A stretch of DNA of 64,000 nt from Daphnia pulex (taxonomy: Eukaryota > Arthropoda > Branchiopoda > Diplostraca > Daphniidae), in assembly GCF_021134715.1 (NCBI RefSeq), contig NC_060025.1, positions 8,804,001-8,868,000 of the forward strand, written 5' to 3'. Below the pieces are notes generated by a model. The model was not told the origin of the DNA and ran no database searches. It was given only the letters and a program-made list of their open reading frames with translations. The position numbers and the translations under genes were made by a program. Below are positions 9,026 to 62,856 of this stretch, piece by piece. Numbering within the stretch: the stretch's first letter is position 1; every line of letters starts with the position of its first letter.

Positions 9026-10771
9026 ATGGATACTAGAACAATAACAGCATTCCTCTTATTGATTGGATTGGTGTGGGGACTGAATGAGACGCAACTAGAT
9101 AATTCCACTCATCACTTTCTCCAAGAATCTCAGCTGGATGTTTTTACCGAAATTCTTACTCAGAAATATGCTGAAAGCAGTCAGCTTAAATTACCAGAGT
9201 TTACATCTCTCTGGGCTAATTTACTTGCAGTACACAATCAGACTTCAGCCAGTCCATCATTAGAATCTCTGTGCAACGAAACTTTGGTTCATTCACCCAT
9301 CTGCCAACTGTTCACTCGAGTAATTATGTTTTTCTAAAGAATTTGATTGCAAAAAACTTTCATTCTACTTTCTATCATTATAGTGCTCAGAACCCAAAGA
9401 GATATTTGAGCTGGTTAACAAGACACACTTGGACAAGGCTGGCCTGAAAGATGTATGCCCTTTAATACTTTATCAAATGGAATCTGGGGTTTGTCACCAG
9501 AATTCTAACAAAGTTAAATCCAACCAGCAACCAGAAATTAAATCATCAGAGGTTAACAAGAAACCCACTCCACACGAAGGTAAATAATTATGCAACCACT
9601 CAAAGAATATTTAATAATTTTTTTTTGTGTGTGCGTCTAGTGTGGGGATATGGTATCCTTTTCGTCACGCTCATTAGTTTGTGTTCATTGGTTGGCGTGT
9701 CCGTTCTGCCCTTAATGGGAAAAGCTTTCTATTCCAAACTGTTGACTGTGCTTATCGGTCTAGCCGTGGGTTCCCTATCTGGTAGCTCGGTTTTCCACCT
9801 GATCCCGCAGGCGTTCGGCCTGATGAACTCGGATCCAGATCACCATTATTTGCGGACATCAGTTTTACTCTTTTCTGGCGTCTGGCTCTTTTTCATGATC
9901 GAACGTTTCCTAAAAATTATCATGGACTGGAAAGAGAAGAAGAACCAGTTGAAACGAGTTGTCAGCAATCCAGTAGCAGCCTTGAGCCTTATTGCGGAAT
10001 CTCCCGGACCAGTTAGTGCACTCAGCGCGGATGTTGAGAAAATTTACGAGTCTCAAGAGCAAGTGATCAAAGCCTCATTTGGACATCAAGCGGTAAAATT
10101 CAAACTTTTCGAATTAAAATTTTGCGAAAATCATAATTTCACTTTTCGAAATTCAGAAACCACAACGAAGACATAGCCATGAGCGCATGATTCACTACAA
10201 ATCCGGCGAATCAGCCATCTCTTCTTTAGCATGGATGATCATCTTCGGTGATGGTTTCCACAATTTTATCGACGGACTTTCTTTGGGAGCCGCTTTCAAT
10301 GAGAGCATCCCTACTGGAATGAGTATATCATTGGCTGTCATGTGCGAAGAGTTACCACACGAATTAGGTAAATTTACACGAATTAGATAATTCCCTTATT
10401 TATTATTTGACTCATTTTGTTTCTCAATTAAAGGAGACTTTGCTGTTCTTTTGAGCGCTGGAATGACGATGCGTCAGGCATTGATCTATAATTTCCTTTC
10501 GGCCTGTACTTGCTATCTGGGCCTGGTTTGCGGTATCATTCTTGGGGAGTTCGAGGCTTCGCAGTATATTTTTGCCCTGGCCGGAGGCATGTTCCTTTAT
10601 ATAGCCCTGGTTGACATGATGCCCGAAATGAACGAAGTTGCGGAAGAAGCCAGCCGCGAATCTGTGCCCCAGGCACTCAAAGTATTGGTTTTGCAAAACA
10701 TTGGCATTTTAAGTGGCGTTGTCGCTCTTTATCTCCTGGCTAGATTCCAAGATCAGATTCGTTTCGTGTAA
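9026..10771 (+). CDS. ZIP8/ZIP14-like metal ion transporter (SLC39 family, LIV-1 subgroup)
   Basis: Five exons (9026-9319, 9384-9579, 9641-10092, 10157-10367, 10434-10771) give 496 residues; human ZIP14 has 492. The protein has a signal peptide (ITAFLLLIGLVWG), a cysteine-containing N-glycosylated ectodomain (NxS/T sites, C near the first membrane helix), then eight expected membrane helices. Helix IV carries HNFIDGLSLGA (349-) and helix V carries CEELPHELGDF (377-). Most LIV-1 members have HExPHE in helix V; the glutamate in the first position is the mark of ZIP8 and ZIP14, which move zinc, iron and manganese at the plasma membrane. The C-terminal half aligns closely with ZIP8 (ALAGGMFLYIALVDMMPEMN). 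The start is the ATG right after the 5' UTR acceptor. The cytoplasmic loop has only a short histidine cluster (RRHSHERMIH). Confidence 0.93.
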
Positions 10772-28682: not shown

Positions 28683-29286
28683 TTCTCTCTAATCTCTTTT
28701 GGGTGTTCACAATAAAAAAAAATTATCAAAAAGATGTTTCTCATCAAAACAAAGGTAAAATCTATTGCACTCCGGAGTCCGGAGCGCTCTAGTGTCAAAA
28801 GTGGCTATTGCACTCCGGAGTCCGGAGTCCTCTAGCGTCAAAAGTGGCTATTGCACTCCGGAAAGGAAACATGTAGTACTTTCATTTGGCGGCGAATGGC
28901 ATTCTGTTTCTGTGTTTTGAAATTTGAATGGTTTTTATTTGAATTCAAAATAAATAACAATCAAATATATTTGAATTTCACTAATAAATACAAATAGTCG
29001 GATAATGATAGTAGTAAGATGGAATTTATATTTAGTTATTGTTAACTTAGATAAAGTACTATGTCCAACATTGAATCAGTACCTTAAAATTCAAATTGTA
29101 AATATAGTTAAGTGTCTCGCAACAGGAATAAAGGAGAATTTATAAAACATATCAATTCAGGGTGATATTTCTTGTTAACAATTTAAACTTCTTGCTCTAT
29201 TTGCTAAGGTGTTACCACAATTCCTACTCACACAAAATTCTTCATAAGCCTCGATATCAATATCACCAAAAGGATTCATTGCAGTT

Positions 29287-29740
29287 TATATTACACAGAG
29301 ATCATTATATTCAAAGTAAGGATTTAGACAGGTTGTTAAACACGCTATAAACACACGACATAGTGAGTCACCCTCTGACACCCCCTTACTTGCCTGAAGG
29401 TCGAGCCGGAATTCTCAGAACGGGGCTTCGAGGGGTTCTTTGTGACCTTTAAACGCATTGACCAGCAACTCACTATTTCTGCTGATTGATTCACACGTAA
29501 CGTGTGATTCAGCTATATTACACAGAGATCATTCTATTCAAAGTATAAATTTAGGTTGTTAAACACGCTATAAACACACGCCATAGTGAGTCACCCTCTG
29601 TCGCCCCCTTGCTTGCCTGAAGGTCGAGCCGGAGTTCTCAGAACGGGGCTTCGAGTTCGAGGGGTTGTTTGTGACCTTGAAACGCATTGACCAGCAACTC
29701 ACTATTTCTGCTGATTGACACGTAACGTGTGATTCAGCTG
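29287..29740 (+). repeat. Tandem duplication of about 225 bases inside the foldback element
   Basis: 29287-29511 and 29514-29740 are direct repeats with small differences. Both run from TATATTACACAGAGATCATT through GTGAGTCACCCTCTG and GAAGGTCGAGCCGGA to ACGTAACGTGTGATTCAGC. The second copy has an extra GAGTTC-type repeat and lacks a few bases near the end. Confidence 0.8.
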
Positions 29741-30022
29741 ATTTCACGCTATAAACCATTCAATGTCCGTGTCCCTTATTCCAATAAACTAATAGCTAGA
29801 CACGTCTTTCATATCTTGAAACAAAACAATACAAAACTAAGTTAACATGCCGTTGCAGTTTACTTTATTATAGTGAGAATATCAAAAGACATTTTAACTG
29901 AATTGTGAGTGCGAAAAAATACTTGGTATTTTCGTGTTCAGTTTCACTCGGTGCTTTGTCATCACATGAATGAACTGACAATGAAAAAGTAATTGATTTA
30001 AGAGAGGAAAGAATTGCCACAT

Positions 30023-30175
30023 ATGGCGGCGTCAATCAAAGATCCTTTAAGAGTGGAATATGGAAGCGCCTTGTCCTTTGATGATGGGTTGCTTTGGGTT
30101 CAAACGCCGAGAAGAATAGAGCAAGAAGTTGAAATGTTTATCAAGAAACATCACCCTGAATTGATATGTTTATAA
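30023..30175 (+). other. Small open frame of 50 codons in the foldback loop
   Basis: Reads MAASIKDPLRVEYGSALSFD, continues with DDGLLWVQTPRRIEQEVEMF and ends at a stop. Composition is protein-like, and its end overlaps the inverted arm. No family is recognised; it could be a scrap of a captured gene. Confidence 0.25.
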
Positions 30176-30561
30176 ATTCTACTTTATTCCTGTTTATTTG
30201 CAATTTGAATCTAAGGTACTGATTCAATGGTGGACTCTCCGACTCTAGCTAAGTTAACAATACTAACTAAGTCCCATCTTTTATATTGGCTAATGGCTAT
30301 TTGTGTTTATTAATGAAATTCAAATATATTTGATTGTTATAAATATATTGCAAATTTATTTCTTACCCTTAATTGAATTTTTAATGAATTCAAAACCAGT
30401 CAAAACACAGAATCAGTCGTTATTTGCCATTCGTCGCCATAAATGACTTCATATTTCCTTTCCGGAGTGCAATAGCCACTTTTGACGCTAGAGGACTCCG
30501 GACTCCGGAGTGCAATAGCCACTTTTGACACTAGAGCGCTCCGGACTCCGGAGTGCAATAG

Positions 30562-31321: not shown

Positions 31322-33680
31322 TTAATCGATCTTGACGGTTGAATAAATTTTTCGGACAAAGAAACTGGAACCTATGTAGCCAACAGTTCCACACAGAACA
31401 CCCAATCCAAGGCTAAAAAGTGCCATGTAGCCGAAGTAAAAAGCAGTTTGGAACAATCCATACATTCTGTCAAAGAGACAATTAAAGTCAAAATCAAACC
31501 AATAATTCGTGAGAAATTTGAAGTAAATTCATACTTGGTTTTAAAGAAGAAGTAGTAGATGGCATACATGTAGACATAACCGGAAGTTGACGCTGCTGCC
31601 AAGAAGCTAGTCCACTGCCTAGATATGGAAAAACAAAATTATTCACCTTTAGTAAACGTTAACAGGTGAAATGATAATAAAATTACCATCGGTAGTCTTC
31701 AGCATTGAGCAAGAAATAAGTGCAGACAATAGTAACACAAACGGTGACTACAATTAGAATCAAAACGACGAGAAGCATGAAGCCGTACACGTAATAGATC
31801 TTGTAGGCCCAAAACGATGTAAAAATGAAATACCTAAAGCAATACAAGAATTTCGGTTAGCAAGATGAAAAATATATGTACATATAAAAGGAATTAATAA
31901 TTATTACATTTCAATGAAGATAGACCCGAAAGGAAGAATTCCACCGAGTGCAACAATCACTGCAGGTTCCATAAACCATTTTTTCTCTGGGATCGGACGA
32001 GGGACGGCATTGACGCGGCATGGATAATCTGGCTGACCAGATAAATTTCGACCCAACACCGTGCCCACCAACGTCAAAGGTAAAACGATAAATAAGCATA
32101 TACAGGTGATGGCAACCTGAAACAAAGTAACTCCATGAAAAACAGTCCTTATTTAAGGCGTTGCAACTGATGGGGAAACTTACCATGGATCCAAATGGAA
32201 TGGCTCTTGAGGCATGATAGTATATCGCGATAAAATTGATGAAAAATTCGGTACCACAGACAACAGCTGGGACAAGAAAGGCGGAAACAAGCATCTGTCG
32301 AATCCATCGCTTGCCGCCCATTCGCGCATACAGACTGCCGCCGAAATAACCATTGACTGGTGACGTGGCAGCATAAACAAAAATGCCTGTACTAATCAGC
32401 GAACCACGTCTACAAAAAAGAAGAATTATTAGCAAACAAAACAAAAAAAAATTGTAAACGAAATATTGAGAACGTACTCTGTGTACAATTCTCCAACGAT
32501 TGTTAAAAGGATAACGCTGATGGTAACCACAGTAATATGATAACCACTTCCAATAAGGGCGGAGAAAAATGTAGCATGAGCGGATGGACGGAAAACATCA
32601 CCATGTACTTGCTTCCAACCATACTCATCTCCTAAATCACGTTCCTATTAGGAAATCAAAACTGCTAAAAGAATTTCTTCCTCGAATGAAACATTGTTCA
32701 TGATACCATGTCGTCCATTTCTTCGTCTTTGTTGTATCTGGCGTAATCTTTCCGCAGAGTTCGCATCAAGATCATGGAGACTAGACCAACCAAAAATATG
32801 ACCATCATAAAACTGTTGAAGATACTGAACCAATGGATCTAGAGAAAGGAAAATATTAAAACAACTTTTTTTTTTAATAATTGAAACTTTGGAACATACT
32901 CTGTGTTGAAAGAAATTTGGATCAAGGTATTTGTCAAAGCGATCTTCAAATTTGACAGCAGAATTCTTCCAACTAACTTCATAGGTAAATGAAATCACAG
33001 CCCCGTTTTCAAGCTTCACTTTGTTTTCTGATGTTAGATTGACATCTACAATTTGTTTTCCATTGAATCCAATTTCAAACTTTTTGTGGGTATAGATGTA
33101 ATGTTCATTGTTTTCCCCAATTTCTCCAACAACTCCCCATATAGGAAGGTCATCAAGATACATTTGATACCAATAATGATTTTTAACTGCATACGTAAAA
33201 GCCTTTAGCTTTTCCTCAGACAACCCCACTTCACAGTATGGAGTTGTGGATATAGATCCTTTCAAAGAAATATTTAAATGATGGCATGTTATTTAATACA
33301 GAAATAAGTTTGATGGGTACCTTTAAAATCAATTGGAATGCCGCTTGGCTCAAGTTCCACCCCTTGCAATGCTTCTCCCAAAGTTTCATGGTAGTGGCTG
33401 ATAGTTTCTTTGGGGCCACTACAGAATGGTAATGAAAAGTACAAATACGTCTCTTGTCGATTATGATAGGGACCGACAGTGTTCACCCACAATACGACTT
33501 CTTCATTTTCTTCGTACTGAAAAGTAATTAGAAACAAATTATCAGAACTGCTTGTAGAAGAAAGGCCGGTTTGAAGACGTCACGCAATTTGACTCGACTT
33601 ACGATGTGATTGTGCTCATCGCCTCCTACAAAAACTGAAAGTAACAGGAGACACAATACAAATAGGTTTGAAGAAATCAT
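31322..33680 (-). CDS. TM9SF3: Transmembrane 9 superfamily member 3 (nonaspanin)
   Basis: Ten exons (33680-33603, 33516-33321, 33258-32900, 32838-32707, 32644-32478, 32409-32184, 32116-31908, 31833-31687, 31618-31535, 31466-31322) join to 580 residues; human TM9SF3 has 589 and matches almost end to end. Nonaspanins are nine-helix proteins of the Golgi and endosomes. They help sort or load glycine-rich membrane helices and affect adhesion and innate immune uptake. Seen here: a signal peptide ([16 protein letters not shown]), the lumenal [13 protein letters not shown] and [16 protein letters not shown] blocks, then multiple helices including [20 protein letters not shown] and [20 protein letters not shown], ending [13 protein letters not shown] start at the ATG in a strong GCCACCATG context; an upstream in-frame ATG is possible. 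It is divergent from the galectin gene. Confidence 0.96.
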
Positions 33681-34226: not shown

Positions 34227-36072
34227 ATGAACACAACTATTAATAATCCGGTATGGTATAAGATTACAATGTTTTTCAGTTTAAAAAAATGAAGTTTTTT
34301 TTTGCAATATTATAGGTTATTCCATGTGTGATGAGCTTACCTGGAGGTCGTTTGCAGCAAGGGAACCTTATTGTTATTCATGGTCAACCCACTTACAACA
34401 GCAACAGGTAAGACAGTATGACTGTGTGATATCCAACTTTGAAGCGGTTCTATGCATTTCTTTAGTTAGCTCATTTCTGTAATTGTAGTGATAGATTACT
34501 AAATATAGATTTTTTATTCATATAAAACCTACATGCCTTATTCCCCTCCTGCTTCATAAAATTAGGTTTGGCATCAACTTGTTACATCAGGGAAATATGC
34601 AATGCGTCTTCCATTTCGATGCCCGTTTCGACCAGGGTCAGACTGTGCGCAATACTAATTTTCCGTCTTCATCCTGGGGGCCGGAAGAACGATCCACGTT
34701 ACCCTTTGCCAAGAATAGGCACTTTTTTATGGAAATAAGATGTTTGCCGGATCGATTTTCGGTTCGCTTTCTTTTCAGATAACACATGTCGAGTCAATCT
34801 CTTGCCGCTTTAGCTTTCATTTACATTCACCACGGTTATCTTTGCTTCGTAGCTATATGCTCTAAATACTTTGTTATCTTGGATTTACCTATTTTTTCAA
34901 AAAATGTTGCTGCTTTGTTTATCGCCGTTTGTGCTTACTTTGTCTGTCATTTGTCCAGGTTTTGTGTGAGCTTGGTTTGTGGGCAGCAACGGGAACTTGG
35001 AGATATTGCATTTCAACTGACCTCACATTTTGACACAAACTGGGTCATCCGCAATAGTAAACTCAACAAGGAATGGGGTGTCGAAGAGGGAACGACGACA
35101 CACAAGTTTCCTTTCAAACGCCTTCAGCCTTTCAAAATTGAAATTTTCACTAGTCCGTCCTCTTATCTGGTGAGTCACTGTCCAAATAACGTCGTCCACC
35201 AGCATCTGATTATTGCTATGCATGTCCGTCTTGCAATGGGCTTTTTTTTCGGTGTGTCACGTTTCCTATTCTTCGAAATAAATCATCTGTGATAATAATT
35301 TTCATTTGATTGATTCACGTCTAGATTACCGTTGATGGTAATCACCACTGTGAGTACATCCACCGAGTTTCGTATTCCGAGGCTAACACTCTTCAAATCA
35401 CTGGAGATGTTCAAGTTAGCATGATTGAATTCCGATCAGCAAATACTTTCCCGACATTTCCATCGAGTAACCGCCTCAACGTGGCATACCCGGTAATAGT
35501 AATTTAGCAAATGAAGCTATATAGATCATCAGTTTAATTATCTCTTTATACCTTTATTTCCATGTCGACATTTCCAGCCGCTTCCATTTGCGTCGTTGAT
35601 TAATGGACCTCTATCAGTGGGAAATGAAATTCAAGTCCACGGACAAGTTAAGCCGCATCCCAACAGGTATATACTACATAATCGTGATAATTCAAACTTA
35701 TATTAAGAGAAGTTAAACTTATGTTTGTTTATTTTTCTCCCAAGGTTCCACATTAACTTGCAGCAGGGATGTCAGTCCTATCCTCATCCCACTATGGTTT
35801 TCCACTTCAACCCTCGTTACGAAGGTGGGCAACGCACCATCGTCATGAATTCCTTCATTGGCAGCTGGGGGTCGGAACAACGGGTTGCGGTCCCTAGGAA
35901 TCTATTACCTGGGAATAATTTCGTGCTCGCCATCAGACGTCAACCGTCTTACTTTGAAGTTTCGGTTAATGGATCCGTCATCGCCACGTACAATCATCGT
36001 ATTGCGGCCGATATGGTCGACTCGGTGTCCATTGACGGAGATGTTATCATCCACAAAGTCGTCGCCTATTAA
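34227..36072 (+). CDS. Two-domain (tandem-repeat) galectin with alternative core exon
   Basis: Exons 34227-34250, 34316-34407, then either 34566-34761 or 34959-35169, then 35325-35492, 35578-35666 and 35745-36072. They give 298 residues (with the first version) or 303 (with the second). Galectins bind beta-galactosides with one jelly-roll domain, and two such domains are joined here. The C-terminal domain keeps the full binding set: FHFNPRYEGG (H, N, R), VMNS (N), then SWGSEQR (W, E, R). The N-terminal domain with the first exon keeps most of it (FHFDARF, VRN, SWGPEER). There is no signal peptide, as is usual for galectins, which leave cells by an unconventional route. The start MNTTINNP is the first ATG before a good donor. 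An AATAAA signal lies at 36283. Confidence 0.9.
34566..34761 (+). other. Galectin alternative core exon A (sugar-binding type)
   Basis: Enters in phase 2 after an AAATTAG acceptor, reads FGINLLHQGN to CLPDRFS and leaves in phase 0 at a weak GTTCGC donor. It carries FHFDARF, VRNT and WGPEER, the residues that touch galactose in galectins. It cannot be spliced together with exon B without breaking the frame, since both enter in phase 2 and leave in phase 0. Confidence 0.7.
34959..35169 (+). other. Galectin alternative core exon B (binding residues lost)
   Basis: Follows a good acceptor (CATTTGTCCAG) and ends at a strong GTGAGT donor, in the same phases as exon A. It reads FCVSLVCGQQRELGD, then FQLTSHF where galectins have FHFNPRF, and WGVEEG where they have WGxExR. 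It is an obvious diverged copy of exon A without the usual galactose contacts. The intervening 34762-34958 contains no other coding exon. Confidence 0.75.
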
Positions 36073-36455: not shown

Positions 36456-37536
36456 TCAGCTTGAACGATAAGCTCGACCGATTTTGGCGTTCCAGTTGAT
36501 TTCACGAAGGACATTTTCACGCGTGTTGGAGACCGGTGGGAAGCCGAGCTCCCTCGCTTTCGGCAGGATTCCGAACGGACGATTGGGGAAATGGGAACTC
36601 AACTCGGATCTGACAGGATTGCTGGATGGATACGAAGCCGGGGGAAGAGGGTCCAGCACGGGCAAATTTAGCGGCGAATAAACCGGAGCTTCACTCTCCA
36701 CTTTCTCTAGAACCGCTTCCGGCGACTCGACAGGTTCCAATGGCAACACAGAAGCGATAAAAATCGGAACAGCTGGCGAAACAGTTGGAATTACGGATAC
36801 CGGTTCATCAACCAGAGGAACATCCACTGGTTCAGAATGTACAAAAGCAGGGACTTGGGGTGCTGCTGTTGGGATGGCTACAATCAAAGGCTCCTCTGCT
36901 ACTATTCTAAGATCGACAGGGCTATCTTCCACTTGCGGCGCAATCGCTGGCACTTCTTCGATCGGCAAATGATCGTCGGAATGCTTTTCGACTTCCGGCG
37001 CTATTTCTTCTTCGACTACTGGAACAGGCTCGACGACATCCTGAAAGTCAATCAAAAGTGGAGTATCATCTACGACACTGGAATGGTCGACGTCAAATAC
37101 TGATAACAATACTGCTGGCTCATCGATCAGGTCGGATTCCGGCAAAACGGCTGGGCTAATGTCATCTTGAATTTTAGTTGACAAATGCAAAGTTTCCTGA
37201 TCGAATACAGGTGAGAAGACTTCGGTGGTTGGCGCTGAAGGTTCCAGGGTAGTCGCTACGGGATCCGCAATTCTAGTCTGCAAGTATTTCTCTGCCACAT
37301 TGGCGTCGTTGCGGGCGACTCGCTGGATGTTACCGAAGCTGCGAGGCAATACTCTAGTCATCCGGTTGGAACGGACCGGGCCGGCGGAGCCGGTAGACAG
37401 TTGCAGCAAAAGCAGACAAGCCAACAGCGCAATGCTTCCTCTCTGAAAATATCAACAAATAATGGAATCCATATTCAACTTTAAAAAGGCCAAATTTTAT
37501 AATTATAGTCCATACACTTACGTGAAGGCGATTCAT
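36456..37536 (-). CDS. Secreted LGFPP-family protein 1 (unknown function)
   Basis: Two exons (37536-37522 and 37442-36456), 333 residues. The first exon encodes only MNRLH. The second starts RGSIALLACLLLLQLSTGSA, completing a signal peptide, then GPVRSNRMTR. The mature chain is rich in Pro, Val, Glu and Ser (repeats of the type EEVPAIAPQVED and VDEPVSVIPTVSP) and has no cysteine, so it is probably disordered. It ends ARELGFPPVSNTRENV followed by LREINWNAKIGRAYRSS. The C-terminal signature, gene structure and promoter are shared with three genes downstream on the window (upstream in transcription). I do not recognise the family or its role. A cuticle, haemolymph or peptide-precursor role would be guesswork. 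Confidence 0.85.
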
Positions 37537-37613
37537 GGCGAATGAGAGGAGTCAAAGTTGTTGTTTACTCGGCAGACTGAATCTGACTGAAGAATAAAGC
37601 TGCAAACATGCTG

Positions 37614-37622
37614 ATTATATAG
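37614..37622 (-). promoter_or_regulatory. TATA box of LGFPP gene 1
   Basis: CTATATAAT on the minus strand, 78 bases upstream of the start codon, with TTCAGTCAG-type initiators at a fitting distance downstream (about 37575-37590). Confidence 0.65.
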
Positions 37623-40600
37623 TGGTCGACTTGCACATATTTTCCAGCCTTTTATTTTCGGCCGATTTCTTTCTTACTCAACTTTTACCCATTAACTAAA
37701 TAAGGAAGCCCTGAATGGTAGCATGCTGCTGAGCTCTGCGCTGTTTGTCTCGTCTAGTAGTTTTACGACACACCAAAGAAAGGGAAAACGCAACCGAGAG
37801 TAATGTATTCATTTGCCTCACAGCTTGCGGGAGGAAGCAGCAGCAGCAGGAGCAGCAGACGATTAGCGAACGTGATTTCCCATCGTCTAATTTACGACTG
37901 GCCTGCGTTCGTTCGTCTAGTTTCACTTTTTTGAGCGACGACGGCACCTGCTTCTGCTCGTGTTGCCACACAGTTAAGGATGCGAGGCACCAGTGAGAGT
38001 TAAGCGCAAACCCCAAAACGTCTGCTGCATTAAATATTCGACGCACCGCAGACTATAAACAGGAAAATGGATGGACTTTTGCCGCATGTTTGTGAGCAGA
38101 AACCCCACCTCTCTCTTACCTCGCCCTACCAGACTTGCATGTAATCATTTTTATTTCGCTCTGCTCTAATACATTTCTCAAGGGAAAAAAATAGATCTAC
38201 ACAGGATTGCAGGGGTAAGAAAAATAGTTGAAACGGTTATGCTCAGTTATGCTATTGTTCGGGTTCTTCCAGGTTTTCACTTAAATAAGGACGTACTTGT
38301 ACCATTTCAACCTGTCGTCGCTTTCCATTTCTTTCGGTAAATTCCGAACTTCTTCCAAGGGTCTAAATGACATCTGCGGATTGCGTAACCTAATGTTTGC
38401 CGTTTTTATCAAATGGCGAGGATGAAACCTTGAAGGATTTTCTACCTACATTCATTTTAACTTGCTGAGTAATAGCTTTCTATGAGATTTTTCTTTAGAT
38501 GATACAATGAGCTATTTTAATCTTCAAGACTTTCATCTTTCAGCGTCATTTTATTTTGGAAATTCTTGGATGGTCGTACGGTAATTACATATTAAGCGTG
38601 AAGCAATCATCCACGAAATTTCGAGTTCATACCCTTTATTAAGTCATTTATGTTACTTTTTAATCAGGTAAATCATACACTCTTCGTTAAATATCGTCGT
38701 CGAGCACAACCAGAAGAGGGACTTTTGTTCTCAACTGGATCGATGAGATTAAAACGTAGTGTTGATTTCTAGCAAATGTTACTGGGATAACCCCAGAATA
38801 AGAAAGACTTAGATCTGTGAAGTGTAACGATGATGTACGTGAACTTAAACTGTCTGATCTAAAACAATTAAATGGGGGGGTGATACAAATTATTGTGCAG
38901 TACGGCGCTATACTTGCTTGTTGAAACAGTTCATGATTTAGAATTAGGCAATTTGATAGTTGAAAGTACGAAAAGTACGAAAATTACGAAAATAATACTT
39001 TCGAAGGAAACAACGAACGAATTTCAAATCTCAGTCTAAAGCGCTTAAAAGATTTGAAAGTGGAACCAAGTAGACTAATTGTATCGCTATTTCTAAATGT
39101 GTGACTTTCTATTAATAAACCTTCCCAGTTCCCACTAATGTATTTATGCTTCCAGACCTCAACACTCAACAGCCAATTGCAACCTCCATCATCTTTAAAT
39201 TTCAAGGAGTTTGCTACAAAACAGAATAAGACATAATCTGTGTGATTCATAGAGTCGCTAAAGCAGCACAATTTTGACCTGAAAGGAAATCACAAGACAA
39301 ATCTATAGGCAATAAGTGGGAGTTGAAATCGTAAAAGATGTCTAACAAATTATTTGCTGAATATATAACTCGTGAGAAATTTTATGTTAGTGCCATCACG
39401 TGATGGCACTATTAGGCCTATGTCAAATAAACACGAAAATGGAACAAATGCTTTTTTGTTCAGCTCAACATGGTTAACTATGGTATGACTTCTTGTTGAA
39501 AGCAAATTTTCGAAACGGATTTGATTAGCGTAACTGCTGATGTAAGAATCATATTCTAATAGCCAATGTGTATCGATAGATGATTGGAGATTCTGTCATT
39601 ATAAGACCATTTCTACAACGGAAACTACTCATCCCAAATGTAAAATTTTGAATACAACTAATATCAGAATCAATTTTCATACACGTTAATTCCATGCAGT
39701 TGATTAAAATTATGGAATCAACGACAGTGATTTCACACCAATTATTTCTTGACATATTTTATATTTGACCAAACATATTTGACTATATTGTCATTAACCG
39801 TTACAGCGTCTAAGTATCAGTCAAGGAAAGACAATTAAATGAGGAGGTGTGCTGGGTATTTCAAAAAAATAGTTGGAGAACTTGATTGGTGTAACTGCTA
39901 GTCTTAAGCCTCTTGGAATGTTACCGCAACCTTTGGCTTTTTCAAATTAAACTGGTATCAAACACTCACGATGCTATTATAAGTCATGTTCATTGTATCA
40001 AATGTTTTATATCTTATTACATGCAGGCAATTTCAAAATAGAATGAAAATGCAAATCTACCCTGGGCGAATTGGAATGAAATACACATATACATTGAAAA
40101 CACAGCTGCAAAAAAGGAGCTCACCAGAGATTGTTTCAATTGGGAAATGACTCAAATGAGCTGGTGCTTTAGTGAACCAATAAAAATTGGTGTTTTCATT
40201 AACGAACAATAATAATGTAATTACGAAGAATGCGTTTCTTAAAGTAATTTTCCAATTACCCGTTCTCGTATTCGATTGATAATCATGATATCCGATGAAT
40301 TGTCGTCCACGTATGTTAGAACCAATACAATCTTATTAATCTTGATTATTTATGTAAATTTTAGTGAATGATGATGTAAACCATCTAAAGAGAATTAATA
40401 AGAACTAGGGCTAAGCCTGACATCTTATTAATCTAATTAGAGTAACATTATCATATATCACATCCTTGAATATAAACTAATAGAAACCATCCTATATATA
40501 TCAAGTTGTAGAATCGTGCGTCGATACAAAGTCAGGAGTGAACGTCGAAGTTTTGATATATTATTGCGAACTTCTGATACAATTCGTTCATTAAACAAAG

Positions 40601-40982
40601 CCAGACGAAGGTCTAATGATTGTTCACATACGAAAATTAAGGAGCAACCAATTAGTATACTCATATTTAACGATATTCACTTAAATTGTCTAGATTTAGT
40701 TCTGAACTGATTTAAGAACCGCCCGAGGGAAGTCTTTGTTTGGATAGATATAACTTATCGGTAACTTTTGTTTAGGCCTACATATACGGCAACCACGTAA
40801 ACTCAAAACTTTTTTACTCAGATAAATTTAAGCTTGCGGCAAACGTCACGTATACTGTATATGGTATATTTATCAATCTACCGTTTATTTATTCGAATTC
40901 AGTTGAATAGTATAAAAATGAAGAGAATTTGACACCAAATAGTTAAAAAAAGAGGGCACATGACGGACGGATTGAAGCCGAA
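37623..40982. other. Long spacer between LGFPP genes 1 and 2
   Basis: 3.4 kb, mostly AT-rich. Short frames at 37696-38046 and 38984-39271 are not recognisable. No fifth member of the family was found here: there is no LGFPP-like C-terminus and no leader exon. Confidence 0.4.
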
Positions 40983-42041
40983 TTACCTGAATTCAGCCCA
41001 ATTGACTTGAACACCAAAATTGTCTTGCGTGTTGGATATGGGAGGGAAGCCCAGCTCCCTCAAACGAGATTCGATCGGACGGCCGGAAGAGTTACTGACC
41101 TTTTCATTTGGATTGTCTGTAGTGATCAGATCGTACGAATTGTTTGGCTGATATTTGGACGGATCGACGCCAAAGGAAGACGACGCTGTTTGCGTTTTGG
41201 CATCCAACTCCAGCGGAAGAGCGCCAACGTTGTTCCCTTGTTGCGCAATGATTGCTGACTGATCGGGAGCTTCCGGTAATGAGGAACTGATTTCCTCTTT
41301 CTCTGGGAGTGCTGCCGTGGATGGTAAGATGGTCTCCAGAGGCAAATCGGCAACGGTGATGGGTATGGCTGATGGACCCTCCGGGACACGTACAATTGGA
41401 TACGTTAACGGAAGTTCCGCTGGATTAAAAGGTGCTTCCGCAGTTGGTGAATGATAGAGTTCAGATGTAGTCGGAAGCTCTTGTTCTGGAAGAAACTTGG
41501 AATAGGAAGGATCCTCCAGCTTCTGAATTGGCTCTTGAACATTAGATGACGTCACAGTTTCAACTGAATCTGAATTGCGTAATCCGCTGTCGACATCTGT
41601 TGGCAGTGCTGGAAACTCGGTCTCGTCAGACCCATCAGGTGAGATCTGACCCTCAGGTGAGTCTGGATAATTTCCGATTGGGCCAGTGTTATCAATTGCT
41701 TCCGGTTCATCTAAGGGAACGCCCTCAGCAGTCGTCGGTAGGAAGGATTGGCCAGGAGTCACTGAAACATCAGCTCCATTCTCATCATTAGGAATAAGGT
41801 GATCATCTTGATCGCTGCGAGGAACTCGTTGAATGTTGGCCAGTATGTTGCGTAATTTCAAAGCAGACGTACGAGGTGAACGAACCGGACTGGAGTAACT
41901 GCAGCCTAGCTGAAATAAAACCAGGCAAGCTACAGCCACTGCGTTATTTCTCTTCTGCATTGAAAATGGACCAAAATTATCTAAGTGGTTATAAAATGAA
42001 TATTATATAATTTGAGGCCTAATTACGTTGAGAAAATTCAT
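40983..42041 (-). CDS. Secreted LGFPP-family protein 2 (unknown function)
   Basis: Two exons (42041-42027 and 41954-40983), 328 residues. The leader exon is MNFLN. Exon 2 starts KRNNAVAVACLVLFQLGCSY and continues SSPVRSPRTSALKLRNILAN, a signal peptide followed by the same PVRS block as gene 1, and both proteins then share NIQRVxR. The mature part has no cysteine and is rich in Pro, Ser, Glu and Asp. The tail reads RELGFPPISNTQDNFGVQVN, ending in WAEFR. Intron position and phase are the same as in the three sisters. Confidence 0.85.
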
Positions 42042-42126
42042 GTTGCAAAGGCTCGGTGCGGTGCTGGTTGTGGTGTCTGTTTTAGTTTCTGACTGAATGT
42101 GAGTGAACGACTAAGATAGCGACGGA

Positions 42127-42135
42127 CTTATATAG
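42127..42135 (-). promoter_or_regulatory. TATA box of LGFPP gene 2
   Basis: CTATATAAG on the minus strand, 86 bases before the start codon. ATTCAGTCAG about 30 bases downstream fits the arthropod TCAGT initiator. Confidence 0.7.
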
Positions 42136-43318
42136 CGCTGGCATATAACTTGATTTCCATCACAGCAGCAGTCGCTTTCTCCGCAGTTTTCCTGCCATTA
42201 TATAAACCCACGTACAAAAACCCATTACCGCAAAAATCATTTTGAAAAATGTTTTGAAGTTGAAATCGTTTCTTGTATATACCGTTATCGCTGCCGGTTG
42301 CCCAGCAGAGAAACGGTTGGCCGTTTTAGATAGCTGAACGACATGCAGTCGAAAGGGAAAATGGCGAGACTGATGCGTTGCATTTGTCTGCCGCCTGTAG
42401 CCCGTGGCAAACAAAAAAATAGAAGCGACAGAAGATGATTATTAGCGCATGCGTGATTTCTATATCGACTTCTATACTATACTATCCAGCAGTTATGTTG
42501 GACTTTTTCCCGTTTTCACTTCTTTTTCAAAGAAGCACCTGCAGCTGCTCTTTCCAAACAATTAAAAAGACTTTTGTGCGGCAGACGAACTGCGCTGTTA
42601 CTCCATTATATTTAAGTGTAATAACAATTTTGATCCCCGTCATAGAGCACCGTGGATCGTTCCAGCTTTCTTTTTATTTCTTTCGTTATTTTGCTGCTTG
42701 CCAACAGCATTTGAGACGTGCACAAATGTGACGACAATTTTCACCTGTGCGTTTCTTACGCAACTTTTATTATTCATATTTAGACAGACAATCGTTTAGC
42801 GACGAAAGGTGACGGCAAACCTTCAAACCTTCCCGCCAAAGATTTCATTTTTTTTTCCCGGTTAGGTATAGAATTCAGTGTGGTCAGATCGATTCCCAGC
42901 ATATTATTTTTTATAATGTTTGTATACCCACAAATAAATACATCGTTCATTATATTTTGCGGCTTTGATTCGTAATCTTTTGTTTTGATGGCCGCGGTAT
43001 ATATAAAAGCGGTCAACGCAAAGTCGGAAATTACTGTATATATATACTTTTGGTTAGCCCTTATTACATTGATTTTGGGCTAACATTAAAGATATTTGGG
43101 GGCATATTTGATGAGTATAATAACTGTGAATATATTTCTCTATTTAACCAATAAAACGTGTGTCAAGCAGCATATATGACATGACAAAATAAAATCAGAA
43201 GCTTGAAAATCTAATCTATATTAGATTGAATGATATTATATCTGACTCAAATTATATAATATAACCGAATATAACTGAAGATTCATTGTTTGTTTTTTCG
43301 CTCCTATGTATATAATTA
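42136..43318. other. Spacer between LGFPP genes 2 and 3
   Basis: AT-rich, with unrecognised short frames on both strands. It probably carries upstream control sequence for gene 2. No gene is seen. Confidence 0.4.
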
Positions 43319-44391
43319 TTACCACCAGTCGATTTGATAACCGAAATTCTCGTCCGTGTTGGACACCGGAGGGAACTCCAATTTCTTGGGTTTGGAGTTG
43401 CCGAACGGAATCGGGGGAAAGTCGTCTTCATCCGAAGCGTCAAGATTAATAGCGACCGGGAGAGCAGCGGGGCCGGGGAAAGTCGGCGGGAGATAAATGG
43501 GTTTATCTAATTCTTCGCCAAGATAGGGATTAATGGTGTCGGGAGGATTGTAATAGGAAGTTTTAATCGGGCGATGATGTTTGGGTAGATTCTGCTTATC
43601 GCCGCCCTTCGGCACGCCATACTTCAACGACAAAATCGGAGTGGTCTTCTTCACTCCGCTTTCGGTATTATTCAAAATAAGTTCCGGCAATGTCACTGGA
43701 GCTAAAACGGGAACTTCGGTTGATGGAGGATTGTTGGTACCGGCACCCAAAGGTGCGGCGGTTATGCGAGCCGATTCCGGAGCAGTTGGGACTCGCACTG
43801 CTGGATAAAGTGGAAGATCCATCGGAGTTGTAGAAGCGGAGGCATCCGAAGAGACTTGGTCGATCGCCACAACGTCAGGTGTTACAGCCGCAGGATCGAT
43901 GGAAGGATCGGTGACATATTCAGATTGAGCATCAGCATCAGTTGACCCACTGATATCTGCCAGCAATTCTGATGGACCAACTGGACTGGACTGGAAGTTT
44001 TCGACGGGATCCTCTAAAGGCAATGAATTGTCGGTCGTGGCGATCAAATCTTCGCTGGGATTCTTCACATCTACTAAGGCCGTTTCGTGATTCTCATTGG
44101 TCAACTGCTGATTATCTTGATAATCGCTTGTTCGGGACTCGATATTGGCGTACTTCCGGGATGCAAAGGGACTCCTCACTTCACTCCTGCGGGAAGAACG
44201 AACCGGACCGGCGCAGCTGGACGACAGCAGTTGAATCAAAATCAAGTAGCTGATACACGCCGTAGCCCTACTGCATCTCAACTGAATATAGGCCTACGAA
44301 TAACAAACAAATATGGTTCAGGATTTATAAAACATATTGCAAATCAACTGCTGCTATTTGATAAAGAGAAACTCACGCTAAGAAACCTCAT
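43319..44391 (-). CDS. Secreted LGFPP-family protein 3 (unknown function)
   Basis: Two exons (44391-44377 and 44281-43319), 325 residues. The leader exon is MRFLS, then LRCSRATACISYLILIQLLS and SSCAGPVRSSRRSEV, a signal peptide and the shared GPVRS block. A second AG twelve bases upstream would add AYIQ in frame. The mature part lacks cysteine and holds Pro/Thr/Asp-rich sequence. The tail is PKKLEFPPVSNTDENFGYQI followed by DWW, with E in place of the family G in LGFPP. Signature, leader exon and promoter tie it to the sisters. Confidence 0.85.
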
Positions 44392-44478
44392 GGCGAATTA
44401 TATAGGCTACTTTGATGAAACACGTTATTTGTCAGCAGCTAAACACTTTCTGACTATAAACGATGGGCCATCGGCCAG

Positions 44479-44487
44479 CTTATATAG
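44479..44487 (-). promoter_or_regulatory. TATA box of LGFPP gene 3
   Basis: CTATATAAG within GAGCTATATAAGC, 88 bases before the start. An initiator-like ATAGTCAG lies about 30 bases downstream. The 13 base box is identical to that of gene 4. Confidence 0.7.
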
Positions 44488-45760
44488 CTCCGGATGAAGA
44501 CGCGGCCCTGTTTTTTTTCGCATCTATTTTCATTTTTCAACACTTGGCGTTCCTATTAGCCCATCCCTCCTTAACTAGTTAACCGCAAAAACCAAACAAC
44601 AACAAGGGAACAAAAAAATCATCCGGAGAGAGAGACGACAATTGGTTATTGCTCAGCATATGTATTATACATCCAGCATAGTGTACAGAGTCTACCTAGC
44701 AACACGACCGCCCGTCCTATTGTTTCACGCGTGCGAACGAGAGGGAAAATATGGCGAGTGTTCTATAATGAAGTTTGTAGTAGAAGACAGCACTGCGTGT
44801 GGTTTCTATCGGCTCAAAATTTACGACTTTTGCATTTATTTTCCTGGTTTCACTTAATAGAGCTTCCAATTTTTGTTTTTCCCTTTGGAGTATTTTTTTT
44901 GTTCTCGAACGAATTCAACTTTTTCCGGGCGAAATTCTTCTGCAATCTGCTCTTTTTTTTCTATATGAGCAGTTTATTGCTGCTCAATGAATGAAATTTA
45001 ATCTCAATTGACTTTCAATAGGTACGAATGTGTGTGTGCTGACTGCTGAGCGAAAATATAGTATAAGTGCACCAGCAGGTGGTCTATATGCTCTTTCTTG
45101 AATGTTCTCACTGCCATTATAGCGCGCTCTCCCAGCAGGCTGTATAGTATAGCCTATAATAAATAGCAGCAGCTTTCTTTATAATAATTCTCTTGCGATA
45201 TTAGAACAGCCAGGGAATAAATGTTATGAGACTTTCAGCTGCTGTCTCTATGTCACAGGTGTGTGTAGCCTTGTATTATACAAGGGTTTCACCCGAACCC
45301 AATAACATTTCCTTATGGATTGCACCCGCATGCTGGACACTTGGCTACCTTGGCTATTTCTTTTAGGAAAAGAAACTCTTATAATTGTTTCATAATTATA
45401 TTCGTCCAGACTATTTTTAGCCATGCTCTCTGTCGTTAATATTATTTGGACTAATTTCTTGATGGATCATTGAGCAGCAAATGCAATTTTAAAAATTCGG
45501 TGTTTCTAAATTATGAATTAGGCTGCCTTGTGCATTACATATCTACTAAATTAGATTTAGCTATAGAATTAACAAAACGTACGAATAATTTCTTTATGTT
45601 TGTATAATACTAGTGTATATTTCTGTGTTAACCTATATGTTTGAAAACAAAATTCAGACGAAAATATGACGCATATAATATACGCTCAATTATCAGGAAG
45701 TTTTATATAGCTTCAAAACCAGCTGAAGATTTAATCATATACATGCAGATGTGAAATGAC
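44488..45760. other. Spacer between LGFPP genes 3 and 4
   Basis: AT-rich. Overlapping plus-strand frames at 44642-44994 are rich in Phe and Leu and look like chance. No gene is seen. Confidence 0.4.
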
Positions 45761-46511
45761 TTAAACTAATATGTCCCAGTTATTTTGATTAATCACATTA
45801 TCGCGTGTGTTGGTTATCGGTGGGAATCCCAGAGCTCTCGGTTTAGGAGGAGGACCGATGTTCAAGAAAACATCACCAACATCTGATTTCTCTGGAGATG
45901 TTTGGACAGCAGCGGCAGGCTCAGCTGGATAAGACGGATTCGCTGGTGGATGCGACGATGGAACAGATGGCGATTGAGATTCTACCGCCGCTACTTCTAT
46001 CGGTGCCTGAGGAAGAACATTCTTCAAAAAGTCGTAGAGATGAGGATCGCCCACTACGGCAGTTTCCTCCTGGTTCGTTTGAACATTTTCAGCTGCTGAT
46101 GGATAGGACGGCGGATGCTGTGCATCATCAACGGCGGGATTGGATGATTCAACAGATGGGGAGTACCCCTGGGGTTCAGAGGTTTCCACCAGAGGTTGAG
46201 ACGGATTAGCGTTATTCATGAAATGATAAAAGTTATTAGCCGTCTCAGATTCCCGTTCAGCGGTAGGCCTACTGGGGTCAGCAGGATCAACTCGTTCAGA
46301 AATCCCAGATGTCTCTGTCGAATCCAACGGATTATTTGACGAGGGGAAAGGAACAGCCCAGCTGATAGACAGCAGTAGTTGGAAAACCATCATCAGGGAA
46401 CCGAACCTGCAACTTTTCGTCTAAAAAGAAAGTCACAAATTTGACTGGTCAGCATAAAAGTGGGAACATTTTAGTATCAAGATGAAACCAGCTTACGTTA
46501 AAAAAATTCAT
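45761..46511 (-). CDS. Secreted LGFPP-family protein 4 (unknown function, short form)
   Basis: Two exons (46511-46497 and 46420-45761), 224 residues, about 100 shorter than its sisters. The leader exon is MNFFN, then TKSCRFGSLMMVFQLLLSIS and WAVPFPSS. The mature part is rich in Pro, Ser, Asn and Glu and has no cysteine, with imperfect repeats such as SYPSAAENVQTN and PSYPAEPAAAVQTS. The tail is PRALGFPPITNTRDNVINQN followed by NWDILV. It lacks the GPVRS block of the other three, so it is the most diverged copy. Confidence 0.83.
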
Positions 46512-46620: not shown

Positions 46621-46629
46621 CTTATATAG
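46621..46629 (-). promoter_or_regulatory. TATA box of LGFPP gene 4
   Basis: CTATATAAG within GAGCTATATAAGC, 110 bases before the start codon, with CATCAGTAAC about 30 bases downstream as initiator candidate. Confidence 0.68.
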
Positions 46630-47290
46630 CTCCGCGGAAAGAATAAAATTCATAACATTAGGAACACTTTCTTTCTCTTTTCTATACTTTTCTCTATTTT
46701 GTTAAAAAGCTAACCACCCCAAACCATTTTAAGAAGCTTTTCCCTTTACATTATTAAAGCGTAGGCTATATCCATTAATGTATCCTGAGGATTTTGGGTG
46801 ACGTTAATTGTTCAACGACATGCAGACGAGCCGAGGAGAATGAACTAACATGCGTGGAAAGAGTGTTGGGCTGATGTACAATGCGTTCAGCAGTTTGCCA
46901 TTTGAACGATTTACAAACGCACGGTTTCTTATAGAAATCTTGTCAGGTAAAACAACTCTTCTTCTAAATTTATGATCTTTTCTCTGTGTAATGCTGTAGT
47001 TTCACTTTTTGTATTTACCCACAGCCACACGTGTGGCACCTGAATCCCATTCCTATATTACCGTCACACCTTTCTCCAGAAAATTAATAGCTGTTACATG
47101 CTGCGATGTTGATTAAAATTTTGCTCAACGTCCCAGCGGGAAAAGTCGCATATGTTGATCTCATAAGATCTCATGTGCTGATAAGATCATTTTTCGTGTT
47201 GAATCATTGTAGAATACTGTATTTTTCAATAATTATACCAGAAAACTTTTTATATTTATATTATATGTGATAGGTTGCATAAGTCTTGAT
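46630..47290. other. Upstream spacer, no gene
   Basis: AT-rich sequence beyond the promoter of LGFPP gene 4. Contains a short palindromic TGATCTCATAAGATCTCATG-type stretch near 47156. No gene is seen. Confidence 0.35.
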
Positions 47291-56863: not shown

Positions 56864-56908
56864 TCCTTTTACGCCATCGAGTTGTATAAACATTAATTCT
56901 CCTAAATC

Positions 56909-57439
56909 ATGCAAATCGCCAGCACACCTGTCATTTTGGCAGTTCTTTTGATTGCGTTGATTCGGTTGTGCAATGCGGAGACGGGCAGAGCTCACCTGGC
57001 TGGAAATTCGCCCGTCAAAGGTGTTCTCAACTTCACCGAGTGCTCGGGTGAGTTGAGGATTGTCGGTGAGATCACGGGATTGACGCCGGGCCAGCACGGC
57101 TTTCACGTTCACGAATTCGGCGACATCTTCAGCAACGGGTGCGACTCGACTGGCAAACATTTCAACCCGACCAAGGCGCTTCACGGCGCTCCCGGAGACG
57201 CTCCTAACCGCCGTCACGCCGGCGATTACGGCAACATTTTGGCCGATGCTTCGGGAGTGGCTAAGGTTGACATGGTGGACAAGATGACGGCGCTGAGCGG
57301 GCCGAATTCCATCATCGGACGGGCCATGGTCGTTCACGCCAACGAAGACGATCTCGGCCGCCAAGACAACGAAGGCAGCCGGACGACGGGCAATTCCGGG
57401 CCCCGCATCGCTTGCGGCATCATCTTCATCGCCCCCTGA
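56909..57439 (+). CDS. Extracellular Cu/Zn superoxide dismutase
   Basis: A single exon of 176 residues. The enzyme turns superoxide into oxygen and hydrogen peroxide. The signal peptide (PVILAVLLIALIRLCNA, 1-23) sends it outside the cell. All metal ligands are in place: His66 and His68 (GFHVHEFGD), His84 (HFNP), His92, His103, Asp106 and His143. Arg166 (GPRIACG) is the channel arginine, and Cys78 and Cys169 can form the structural disulfide. It lacks introns, unlike nearly every other gene here, and its codons are GC-rich compared with the flanks. This may reflect an old retrocopy or simple intron loss in a family known to multiply. Part of its 3' flank is duplicated at 59368-60035. Confidence 0.95.
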   Translation: MQIASTPVILAVLLIALIRLCNAETGRAHLAGNSPVKGVLNFTECSGELRIVGEITGLTPGQHGFHVHEFGDIFSNGCDSTGKHFNPTKALHGAPGDAPNRRHAGDYGNILADASGVAKVDMVDKMTALSGPNSIIGRAMVVHANEDDLGRQDNEGSRTTGNSGPRIACGIIFIAP

Positions 57440-60805: not shown

Positions 60806-62856
60806 GCTTAATTTAACGTATCTCCCCATCGAAGTTTAATCCCCACGTACACCAATTTTCTTGAGCAATCACTAGCAGCAAAATATTCCGATTACATGGT
60901 AGATGTGGCGACAACGGGTTGACGTTGAGAACACCAGCTGATTGCCCTTCCGTTAAGAGCGAGAATGTATCCAGTGGTGGTCCGTTTTGAATCCGCATCC
61001 CCAGCGTGGTCTACGTCCGAAAATGCAACAACGGTGGTGTTGTCATGGCCCTTACTGCCGAACTCGAGACCATGGTAGCGTGTTGTGCCGAGGTATTGAA
61101 GAATACGTTTAGCAGCTTTCCAGTGGATTATGGTAGGATTATGAAGGTGCTGAGCAAGTTGACTTGCCATGAAGATGACGTCTGGTCGAATTTCGAGTCG
61201 AACTTTGAGAGCCGCGTACATGTTACTCCCCACGAGTTGGCAGTAAGGAATGTGGTGCATAGTAGCGACGGTAGCAGGAGATGCTGCAAGGCGGACGTCA
61301 GTGAGAGGAGCAAGAGTAGCTTCAGCACGATATAGAGTCTCCCCAAACCGGGATGCTGTTAGAATGGTCGTCTTGTTTCGTTTGATGATAGCTTGTAGGC
61401 CAGAGAAAGAAACTGTAAATCCACTCTTGGTTAAGCAACCAATAGAGATGAGATTCACGCCCAGTCCAGGAACAAACAGAACTTCTTTAACTTCACGAAA
61501 TGTAGACGAATCATCAACGTGTCGGACAAGTCGCATAGTCCCAATTCCACGGGCATAAAGGACAGTACCACCAATTCCATTCACAGCCCAGCTATTGTCA
61601 GCGATAATGCGTAGATCAGTTAACATGGGTTCATCACCACTCATGTGCTTAGTTGCACCAGAATCAAGATAAATGTCCTTCGAATTCTTAGCTGTCAAGC
61701 AACATGAAGAGATGAGGGAAAAATCGACTTTCTTCCCGGATGAATTAGTTGTGTCCCGATCATCTTTGGGCCGTTTGTAGTGAAAGGAGCTGGACTTGGT
61801 TTTCTCGTTTTCATTGGAAATACGAGTTCGACATTCGAATTCAAGATGGCGGTCTTTCCCGCAGTATGAGCAAGAGACAAGATCCCGATTGATTTCGCTA
61901 CTCATGTGCCCTCTTGACTGGCCTCTTCCACCACGAAAGTGTCCTCTTCCACGTGAATCGTTGCCAAACAGAGCAGAACTCTCAATGGAATTGTCAGGGG
62001 GTCCTGTGTCTGAATTCAAAATCAATGATCGAGCATTTGATTGTCCTTGACTGTTGTTGAATCTTCTTTCTTCCCCAACAATGCGAGCACGCAGTGCTTC
62101 CATTGTTCTATCAGCGTCAGGGAGATTGTCCCAAATGGACGTCAGATTGGCAAATCGTTCAGGAAGGCTACACAAAATGGTAGTGATGAGGTGGTGTTCT
62201 GACACCTAGATTAACCAGAAATGGAGATCAACAAAGACTGCATAAGACACAACTCAGAAAACAAAGTGATAAAGATATGTATCAGTTACCATCACTCCAA
62301 GATCATTGAGTTCAGCGGCTTTGGATTCTAATTCAGTGATGTGAATCATGATATCTTGGTTGTCGACTGGTCTCAGATTCATGAAGTCTCTGTGTAAGAG
62401 ATGTTTGTTGTCTGCAGCCCGTTGAAGATATTGGGTTTCCAACCGAGTCCACATGTCGTAGCTAGTTCTACAGTTGAGAAGTGCCAACTTTCTAGTCTCA
62501 TCACAGCAATTGAATATGAGAAATCTGCCGTAGCAATCAGTTGTCTTCCATTGATTGATCAATTCCTGGTTGGTGACTACACGAAGATCTCCTTCACCAG
62601 CAAAGATTTCTTGAGGTTCGTTGTCTTCTCCTTGAATGAATTGTCTCAGTTGTTTGAGAGTAAACAACATTTCCATGTTGTGTTTCCACGTAGTGAATTG
62701 AGTTCCATCAAACTTTCTTAAATGCTTTATAGCATCCAAAGAGTAGTTTTGAGCCATTCTGATAAGTTCGTTAACGGTATGGCGAAACCTGGGCCCATAA
62801 CCTGTTAAGACACAAATTATCAGAGAAGAGTTTTGTCAGTTTGAATACTCGCGTAG
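60306..62856 (-). mobile_element. Broken Ty1/copia-family LTR retrotransposon fossil
   Basis: An old copia element lying on the minus strand. Parts recognised: one full-length LTR at the left (60306-60805, TG...CA), a partial LTR at the right edge, a primer-binding region beside it (GGTTATGGGCCCAG, a common copia type), a gag region (about 62254-62757, UBN2-like) with a CCHC zinc knuckle, a protease region with DSGATKHM, and a stretch from the C-terminal RNase H part of pol (ADSKRTTTGY). Not all pol parts can be recognised. It is broken, with several breaks, and cannot move. The fairly readable frames suggest a moderate rather than ancient age. The right end abuts the CACTAGAAC minisatellite. 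Confidence 0.85.

Follow-up and report, generated by a model that had tools for sequence, protein, structure and literature searches.

The window, the whole 64,000-nucleotide stretch of Daphnia pulex DNA analysed here, contains a tandem array of four two-exon genes, all on the minus strand, at 36456–46511, with the first ATG at 46511 and the last stop codon at 36456. In order along the minus strand, these are g1 (46511–45761), g2 (44391–43319), g3 (42041–40983) and g4 (37536–36456). Their form is the same throughout: the first exon codes for exactly five residues, a GT–AG phase-0 intron of 72–95 bases follows, and the remainder lies in one long second exon. In g1, the coding part of exon 1 specifies MNFFN (46497–46511), the GT–AG intron spans 46421–46496, and exon 2 (45761–46420) supplies the rest of the signal peptide, the body and the tail of a 224-residue protein. 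The corresponding segments in g2 are MRFLS (44377–44391), an intron at 44282–44376, for which an alternative acceptor is possible 12 bases upstream, and exon 2 at 43319–44281 (325 residues in total). Those in g3 are MNFLN (42027–42041), an intron at 41955–42026 and exon 2 at 40983–41954 (328 residues), and those in g4 are MNRLH (37522–37536), an intron at 37443–37521 and exon 2 at 36456–37442 (333 residues). The proposal in the initial annotation of four consecutive minus-strand genes is borne out at these positions, and g4 is residue for residue the same as isoform X2 of LOC124203147, an NCBI protein of D. pulex. A second NCBI isoform of LOC124203147 lacks 20 body residues of g4. The protein DAPPUDRAFT_308983 is 94% identical to g3 and has the same first five residues.

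The array is adjoined at g4 by galectin exons on the opposite strand (34495–36072, plus strand; Gal-bind_lectin E-values of 2.7e-13 and 4.7e-25). Elsewhere in the window are exons of an EMP70/TM9SF-type membrane protein (31900–33600, minus strand), an exon of a ZIP zinc transporter (10391–10768, plus strand), a Cu/Zn superoxide dismutase with a hydrophobic leader (56906–57436, plus strand) and pieces of a Copia-type retrotransposon (Retrotran_gag_2 and Pol_BBD; 60895–62835, minus strand). At 28762–30561, 121-base inverted repeats that are 97% complementary lie some 1.56 kb apart with more inverted arms inside; this region resembles either a large inverted duplication or a mobile element bounded by terminal inverted repeats.

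The proteins encoded by g1–g4 consist of a signal peptide, an acidic, Pro-rich body and a C-terminal tail. With signal cleavage placed by eye, GPVRS or SPVRS follows the likely cleavage point in three of the four, as first noted, and the mature part is devoid of cysteine in every case. The mature parts carry net charges of −18 to −29 and contain 12.6–15.7% Pro and 13.0–18.3% Ser plus Thr, the latter compared against the Ser/Thr-dominated body of secreted mucins. The earlier description of the body as hardly alignable proves too strong, given two widely shared blocks, NIQRVxR[NS]D just past the signal peptide and a central one around LPLE, but it is right in that the body diverges far faster than the tail. 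Expressed as whole-region averages, dN/dS lies between 0.48 and 0.54 in three paralogue comparisons, with no sign of values above 1, and these ratios indicate that the family proteins are under constraint, though it is loose. AlphaFold2, run on the whole protein with a 29-sequence alignment, returned a mean pLDDT of 51 with confidence only in the signal-peptide helix, and predicted no fold in body or tail.

The tails of g1–g4 share the consensus LxFPP[VI][ST]NTx[DE]N and then a tryptophan which, as anticipated from the 6–7 residue spacing first proposed, occupies the seventh position past the last N in each protein. Taken through the stop codon, and all on the minus strand, they begin with LGFPPITNTRDN in g1 (45761–45832), LEFPPVSNTDEN in g2 (43319–43381), LGFPPISNTQDN in g3 (40983–41054) and LGFPPVSNTREN in g4 (36456–36548). 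Searched as a DNA pattern, FPP[VI][ST]NT gave 16 matches in 133 Mb against one for the reversed-pattern control, so the motif is not a product of chance; 10 of these matches are tails of family open reading frames and six are not. Only five columns are invariant in the 29-sequence alignment (F, P, T, N and W), and all of them fall within the tail. The fixed tail on a fast-changing body that had been described is supported by comparison of g4 with the D. magna protein P0040, in which 36 of 42 tail residues and 41 of 153 body residues are identical. The corresponding values are 36/42 and 44/153 for the D. sinensis protein P0033 and 34/42 and 39/153 for P0046, and the contrast is smaller for the closer relative P0025 (33/42 and 79/153). 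Modelled alone by AlphaFold2, the tail has a mean pLDDT of 56.9 and no fold. The absence of a predicted fold, both here and in the whole protein, is as expected for a linear motif, and the models are consistent with a tail of this kind that may fold upon binding.

Conservation of this sort might also be found in the precursor of a secreted bioactive peptide, in which the body would be a spacer and proprotein convertases would release, as a signal, either the tail or the N-terminal portion as far as an R-x-x-R site. The tail is indeed the most conserved part of the protein, basic residues precede it in all four window genes, as had been pointed out, and 14 of 22 sequences, two of the four window genes among them, have an R-x-x-R followed by N or S at the NIQRVxR site. 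This N-terminal site is, however, absent from g1 and g2 and from eight of the 22 sequences overall. A dibasic pair stands immediately before the tail in g2 alone of the four, none of which has a C-terminal Gly-Lys/Arg amidation signal, and there is a single copy of the tail per protein. Neuropeptide and hormone precursors resemble the Daphnia proteins in having a signal peptide, a variable spacer, a short conserved peptide and, in some members here, R-x-x-R sites; they differ in that, in the Daphnia family, dibasic sites do not occur consistently around the tail, an amidation signal is lacking and each protein has one tail copy. Because the processing sites are inconsistent and an amidation signal is missing, release of a C-terminal peptide, which the initial annotation had suggested, gains little support, and we consider a peptide precursor unlikely. 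A docking tail fits better, and we regard this putative role as evenly balanced between right and wrong.

The four genes are only part of a larger family, so that the array first described stands as a unit of four without being the whole. Protein searches combined with reading of the loci identified at least 15 family loci in this genome, 13 of them on C9 (the four window genes and those at 7.654, 7.661, 8.213, 8.582, 8.589, 8.603, 8.611, 8.956 and 8.958 Mb), one on C10 (6.699 Mb) and one on C1 (1.291 Mb). All four window genes possess the tail motif, the five-codon exon 1 and the TATA promoter by which we define the LGFPP family. Judged by reading frame, eight loci look intact (7.654, 7.661, the four window genes, 8.958 and C10), six are broken or partial (8.213, 8.582, 8.589, 8.603, 8.611 and C1), and the locus at 8.956 Mb, where the frame ends right after the tail W, is uncertain.

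Individual loci depart from the common form in different ways. In the member at 7.661–7.662 Mb on C9 (L002), an intron apparently lies in the 5′ untranslated region just ahead of the ATG and exon 1 is apparently non-coding, unlike in its relatives. The C1 locus (L015, approximately 1.291–1.292 Mb) is a near copy of g3 on another chromosome, with 95% DNA identity; it retains the core promoter, has no upstream element (see below) and its frame stops within the tail. At 8.213 Mb on C9, where nothing beyond an orphan tail, at 8.2087 Mb, had been recognised, a gene was newly located, at 8,213,487, by the promoter pattern alone. Its frame reads MNFLN, a hydrophobic leader, NIQRVTRND and RPFGSSPKPRQL, and is separated by about 2.7 kb of other sequence from the tail, LGFPPVASTRDNV...W. 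The insertion (C9 8,208,726–8,211,465; L073 1726–4465) splits the gene just ahead of the tail and contains perfect inverted repeats of 123 and 83 bases; Pfam found no match in two of its open reading frames.

With six of 15 loci broken or partial and the body only loosely constrained, the family might be supposed to be decaying and largely dispensable, its tails having no specific function and resembling one another through recent duplication. We think this very unlikely, since the g4 tail keeps 34–36 of its 42 residues against P0033, P0040 and P0046 while the body drops to 39–44 of 153, and the promoter element and gene form persist.

A TATA box is found 85–117 bases ahead of the ATG in each of the four window genes, and 31–38 bases past its first T is a start-like word, which is TCAGT in three genes and TCAGA in g2. 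All are on the minus strand: the g1 TATA box is at 46622–46628, with TCAGT beginning 32 bases downstream of the first T, that of g2 at 44480–44486 (TCAGA, 33 bases), that of g3 at 42128–42134 (TCAGT, 38 bases) and that of g4 at 37615–37621 (TCAGT, 31 bases). Further upstream is an element, TTTTCCCTTTC, which is exact in g3 (42351–42361) and g4 (37778–37788) and has one mismatch, as TTTTCCCTCTC, in g2 (44739–44749). It is on the coding strand in these three of the four genes; in g1 it occurs, with one mismatch, only on the non-coding strand (46738–46748, plus strand).

Allowing up to one mismatch, TTTTCCCTTTC is present on the coding strand of eight of nine family promoters, some 168–264 bases ahead of the TATA box, whereas the best word in 20 shuffled sets reached at most four of nine. 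The nine were drawn from 12 promoters by leaving out C1, as a near copy of g3, and 8.603 and 8.611, as near copies of 8.589; the element is present at 8.603 and 8.611 and absent at C1. Occurrence at 8.213 Mb is not independent support because the pattern itself found that gene. Throughout the genome, exact TTTTCCCTTTC lies 151–211 bases ahead of CTATATAA in seven places, five of which are family genes, compared with one place for the reversed control. Two matches of this element-plus-TATA search fall outside the family, and it yielded no non-family gene that we could link to cuticle. A looser bipartite pattern of the element was found in 11 places, six of them at family genes; the reversed control gave five, and for this reason the five non-family matches are taken as chance rather than as other genes under the element. 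The element is retained across genes with poorly alignable bodies, and it may be partly inherited because paralogues share ancestry. As far as can be read from the sequence, the family genes have a common promoter, comprising TATA, a TCAGT-like start, the five-codon exon 1 and upstream TTTTCCCTTTC, and this is new here.

Read on the opposite strand, the element is GAAAGGGAAAA, which we take to fit an interferon-response-like (IRF/ISRE-type) motif, GAAANNGAAA, and which presumably also resembles the sites of Blimp-1, a candidate binder. Blimp-1 sites have been linked to Drosophila cuticle genes in the available text of PMC6743789, which gives no consensus letters; the available texts of PMC6854374 and PMC7337397 were no help in this respect either. 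A genome search for an IRF gene gave no match, and its controls were likewise silent. The IRF-type resemblance would suit secreted proteins of immune or surface defence, turned over rapidly under pressure from pathogens, as would the turnover of the family, with its six broken or partial loci among 15, and the dN/dS of 0.48–0.54 in three comparisons. The proteins nevertheless have no Cys-rich, lytic or lectin features, and the whole-region averages of dN/dS nowhere exceed 1, and we judge a defence role improbable.

Public protein matches that carry an organism name are all from Daphnia (D. pulex, D. magna, D. carinata and D. sinensis), a restriction that holds for the 7,996 candidates scored in the protein search and the 19 in the tail search. 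In the tree, support of 96/96 joins g4 to proteins from D. magna, D. carinata and D. sinensis, and support of 99/98 joins g3 to one from D. carinata. No firm position is obtained for g1 and g2, whose branches are long. At least two lineages, those of the g3 and g4 types, are also present in D. carinata, and one of the two extends to D. magna. The D. carinata relatives LOC130700387 and LOC130700389 have near-consecutive identifiers and both lie on contigs of 8,392,112 bases, which suggests that the array is old.

The view that these proteins belong to no named family has stood up, there being no Pfam family or PDB sequence match and nothing in the papers listed. Pfam scans of four, 13 and 29 members gave no match above cut-off; weak matches to AUX_IAA, ELMO_CED12, DUF7162 and TMEM132_C (best E-value 0.041) were rejected as low-complexity chance. 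In a PDB sequence search, two matches to a designed protein, with E-values of 0.27–0.28, were also rejected. Literature searches, conducted outside supplementary files, found no published work on these genes among the papers listed. Two database labels call for comment. The short g4 isoform is labelled 'magnetosome-associated protein MamJ-like' by NCBI, for which no support was found and which we read as a low-complexity match. The likeness to MamJ extends to the label only, whereas g4 is an animal gene with a signal peptide, an intron and a private tail. A relative of g3 is labelled 'DUF4794 domain-containing', and yet PF16042 matched none of 29 sequences, the labelled P0006 included, at E-values up to 10, a search in which HMMER filters drop most weak matches; in the genome search for DUF4794, the controls were silent. 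The DUF4794 gene described in the available text of PMC11034644 is from a mosquito, and Plasmodium was unaffected by its knock-down. The family exposes two misleading database labels.

Closer parallels are offered by the arrays of CPR (Rebers–Riddiford) cuticular genes, which likewise combine tandem arrangement, a signal peptide, an early intron, TATA plus initiator and low-complexity sequence. In Anopheles, according to the available text of PMC2259329, the intron lies in the signal peptide in 86% of intron-bearing CPR genes, exon 1 containing 3–36 coding bases, and TATA plus initiator are present in 93%; the same source notes that the early-intron form is not unique to cuticle genes. In Drosophila, most CPR genes carry a single intron that follows the first few codons (PMC2793513, available text). 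Of these features, typical of CPR genes and not exclusive to them, the TATA box and the intron in the signal peptide are present in all four window genes and the initiator is TCAGT in three and TCAGA in g2. The Daphnia family differs from CPR proteins in having an acidic body and a private tail and in lacking the R&R chitin-binding domain; neither this domain (Pfam Chitin_bind_4) nor any other cuticle domain appeared in the scans of four, 13 and 29 sequences. In low-complexity cuticle proteins, short motifs have been proposed as interaction sites, and the GYR/YLP-motif proteins resemble the Daphnia family in that a short motif is conserved within a low-complexity secreted protein (PMC2932725, available text). 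The tyrosine motifs of the former are repeated, in contrast to the single C-terminal LxFPP tail; Pfam GYR/YLP matched none of 29 family members, and YLP-like words were found by a loose pattern in three of 29 sequences, g2 included.

An extracellular matrix location is favoured because the genes resemble CPR cuticle genes in form and in type of promoter and because short motifs of low-complexity cuticle proteins have been proposed as interaction sites; it is weakened by the absence of a cuticle domain, by the acidic composition, by a gene form that is not unique to cuticle genes and by an element-plus-TATA search that pointed to no cuticle-linked gene beyond the family. On this evidence, we assign the proteins to the cuticle or an apical matrix tentatively. 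Many reproductive proteins are secreted, disordered, lineage-restricted and encoded in tandem arrays. The Daphnia family has all of these characteristics and might provide matrix proteins of reproduction or brood, for instance of an egg covering or the ephippium, but no feature of the sequence favours eggs over other matrices, and we see little likelihood of such a role.

It is almost certain from their shared anatomy that g1–g4 are members of one multigene family, which arises and decays by duplication and has so far been seen only in Daphnia, and whose proteins are predicted to be secreted, intrinsically disordered and extracellular. The sequences show that the genes agree in form and promoter and that the proteins combine a signal peptide with a body that is acidic, rich in Pro and free of Cys, and with a strongly constrained C-terminal tail. 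The account that we prefer, though still tentatively, is one of co-expressed, disordered extracellular proteins whose tails dock on a shared partner, which probably belongs to an apical matrix such as the cuticle. The genes would be switched on together via the shared upstream element and the proteins secreted, some members being trimmed at the N-terminal R-x-x-R site. The tail would stay attached and dock on a common partner in the apical extracellular matrix, most likely that of the cuticle or a similar lining, and the body would serve as a spacer or filler, free to drift in sequence and length. A bolder alternative, which we hold to be fairly unlikely, is that the LGFPP tail is a new, Daphnia-only extracellular docking code, a short linear motif recruiting fast-diversifying, co-switched disordered proteins to a single conserved partner, either a receptor or a component of the matrix. 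If true, attachment would be held constant, and matrix or surface properties would be tuned through turnover of the bodies.

A large proportion of Daphnia genes has no known relatives elsewhere and no known role. The present family, undescribed as far as our searches extend, is lineage-specific and of a familiar arthropod gene kind, and its function is what we infer. With a defined tail and a defined promoter element, it is a compact and testable case, and, if the tail docks, it would represent a new arthropod way of anchoring disordered secreted proteins.
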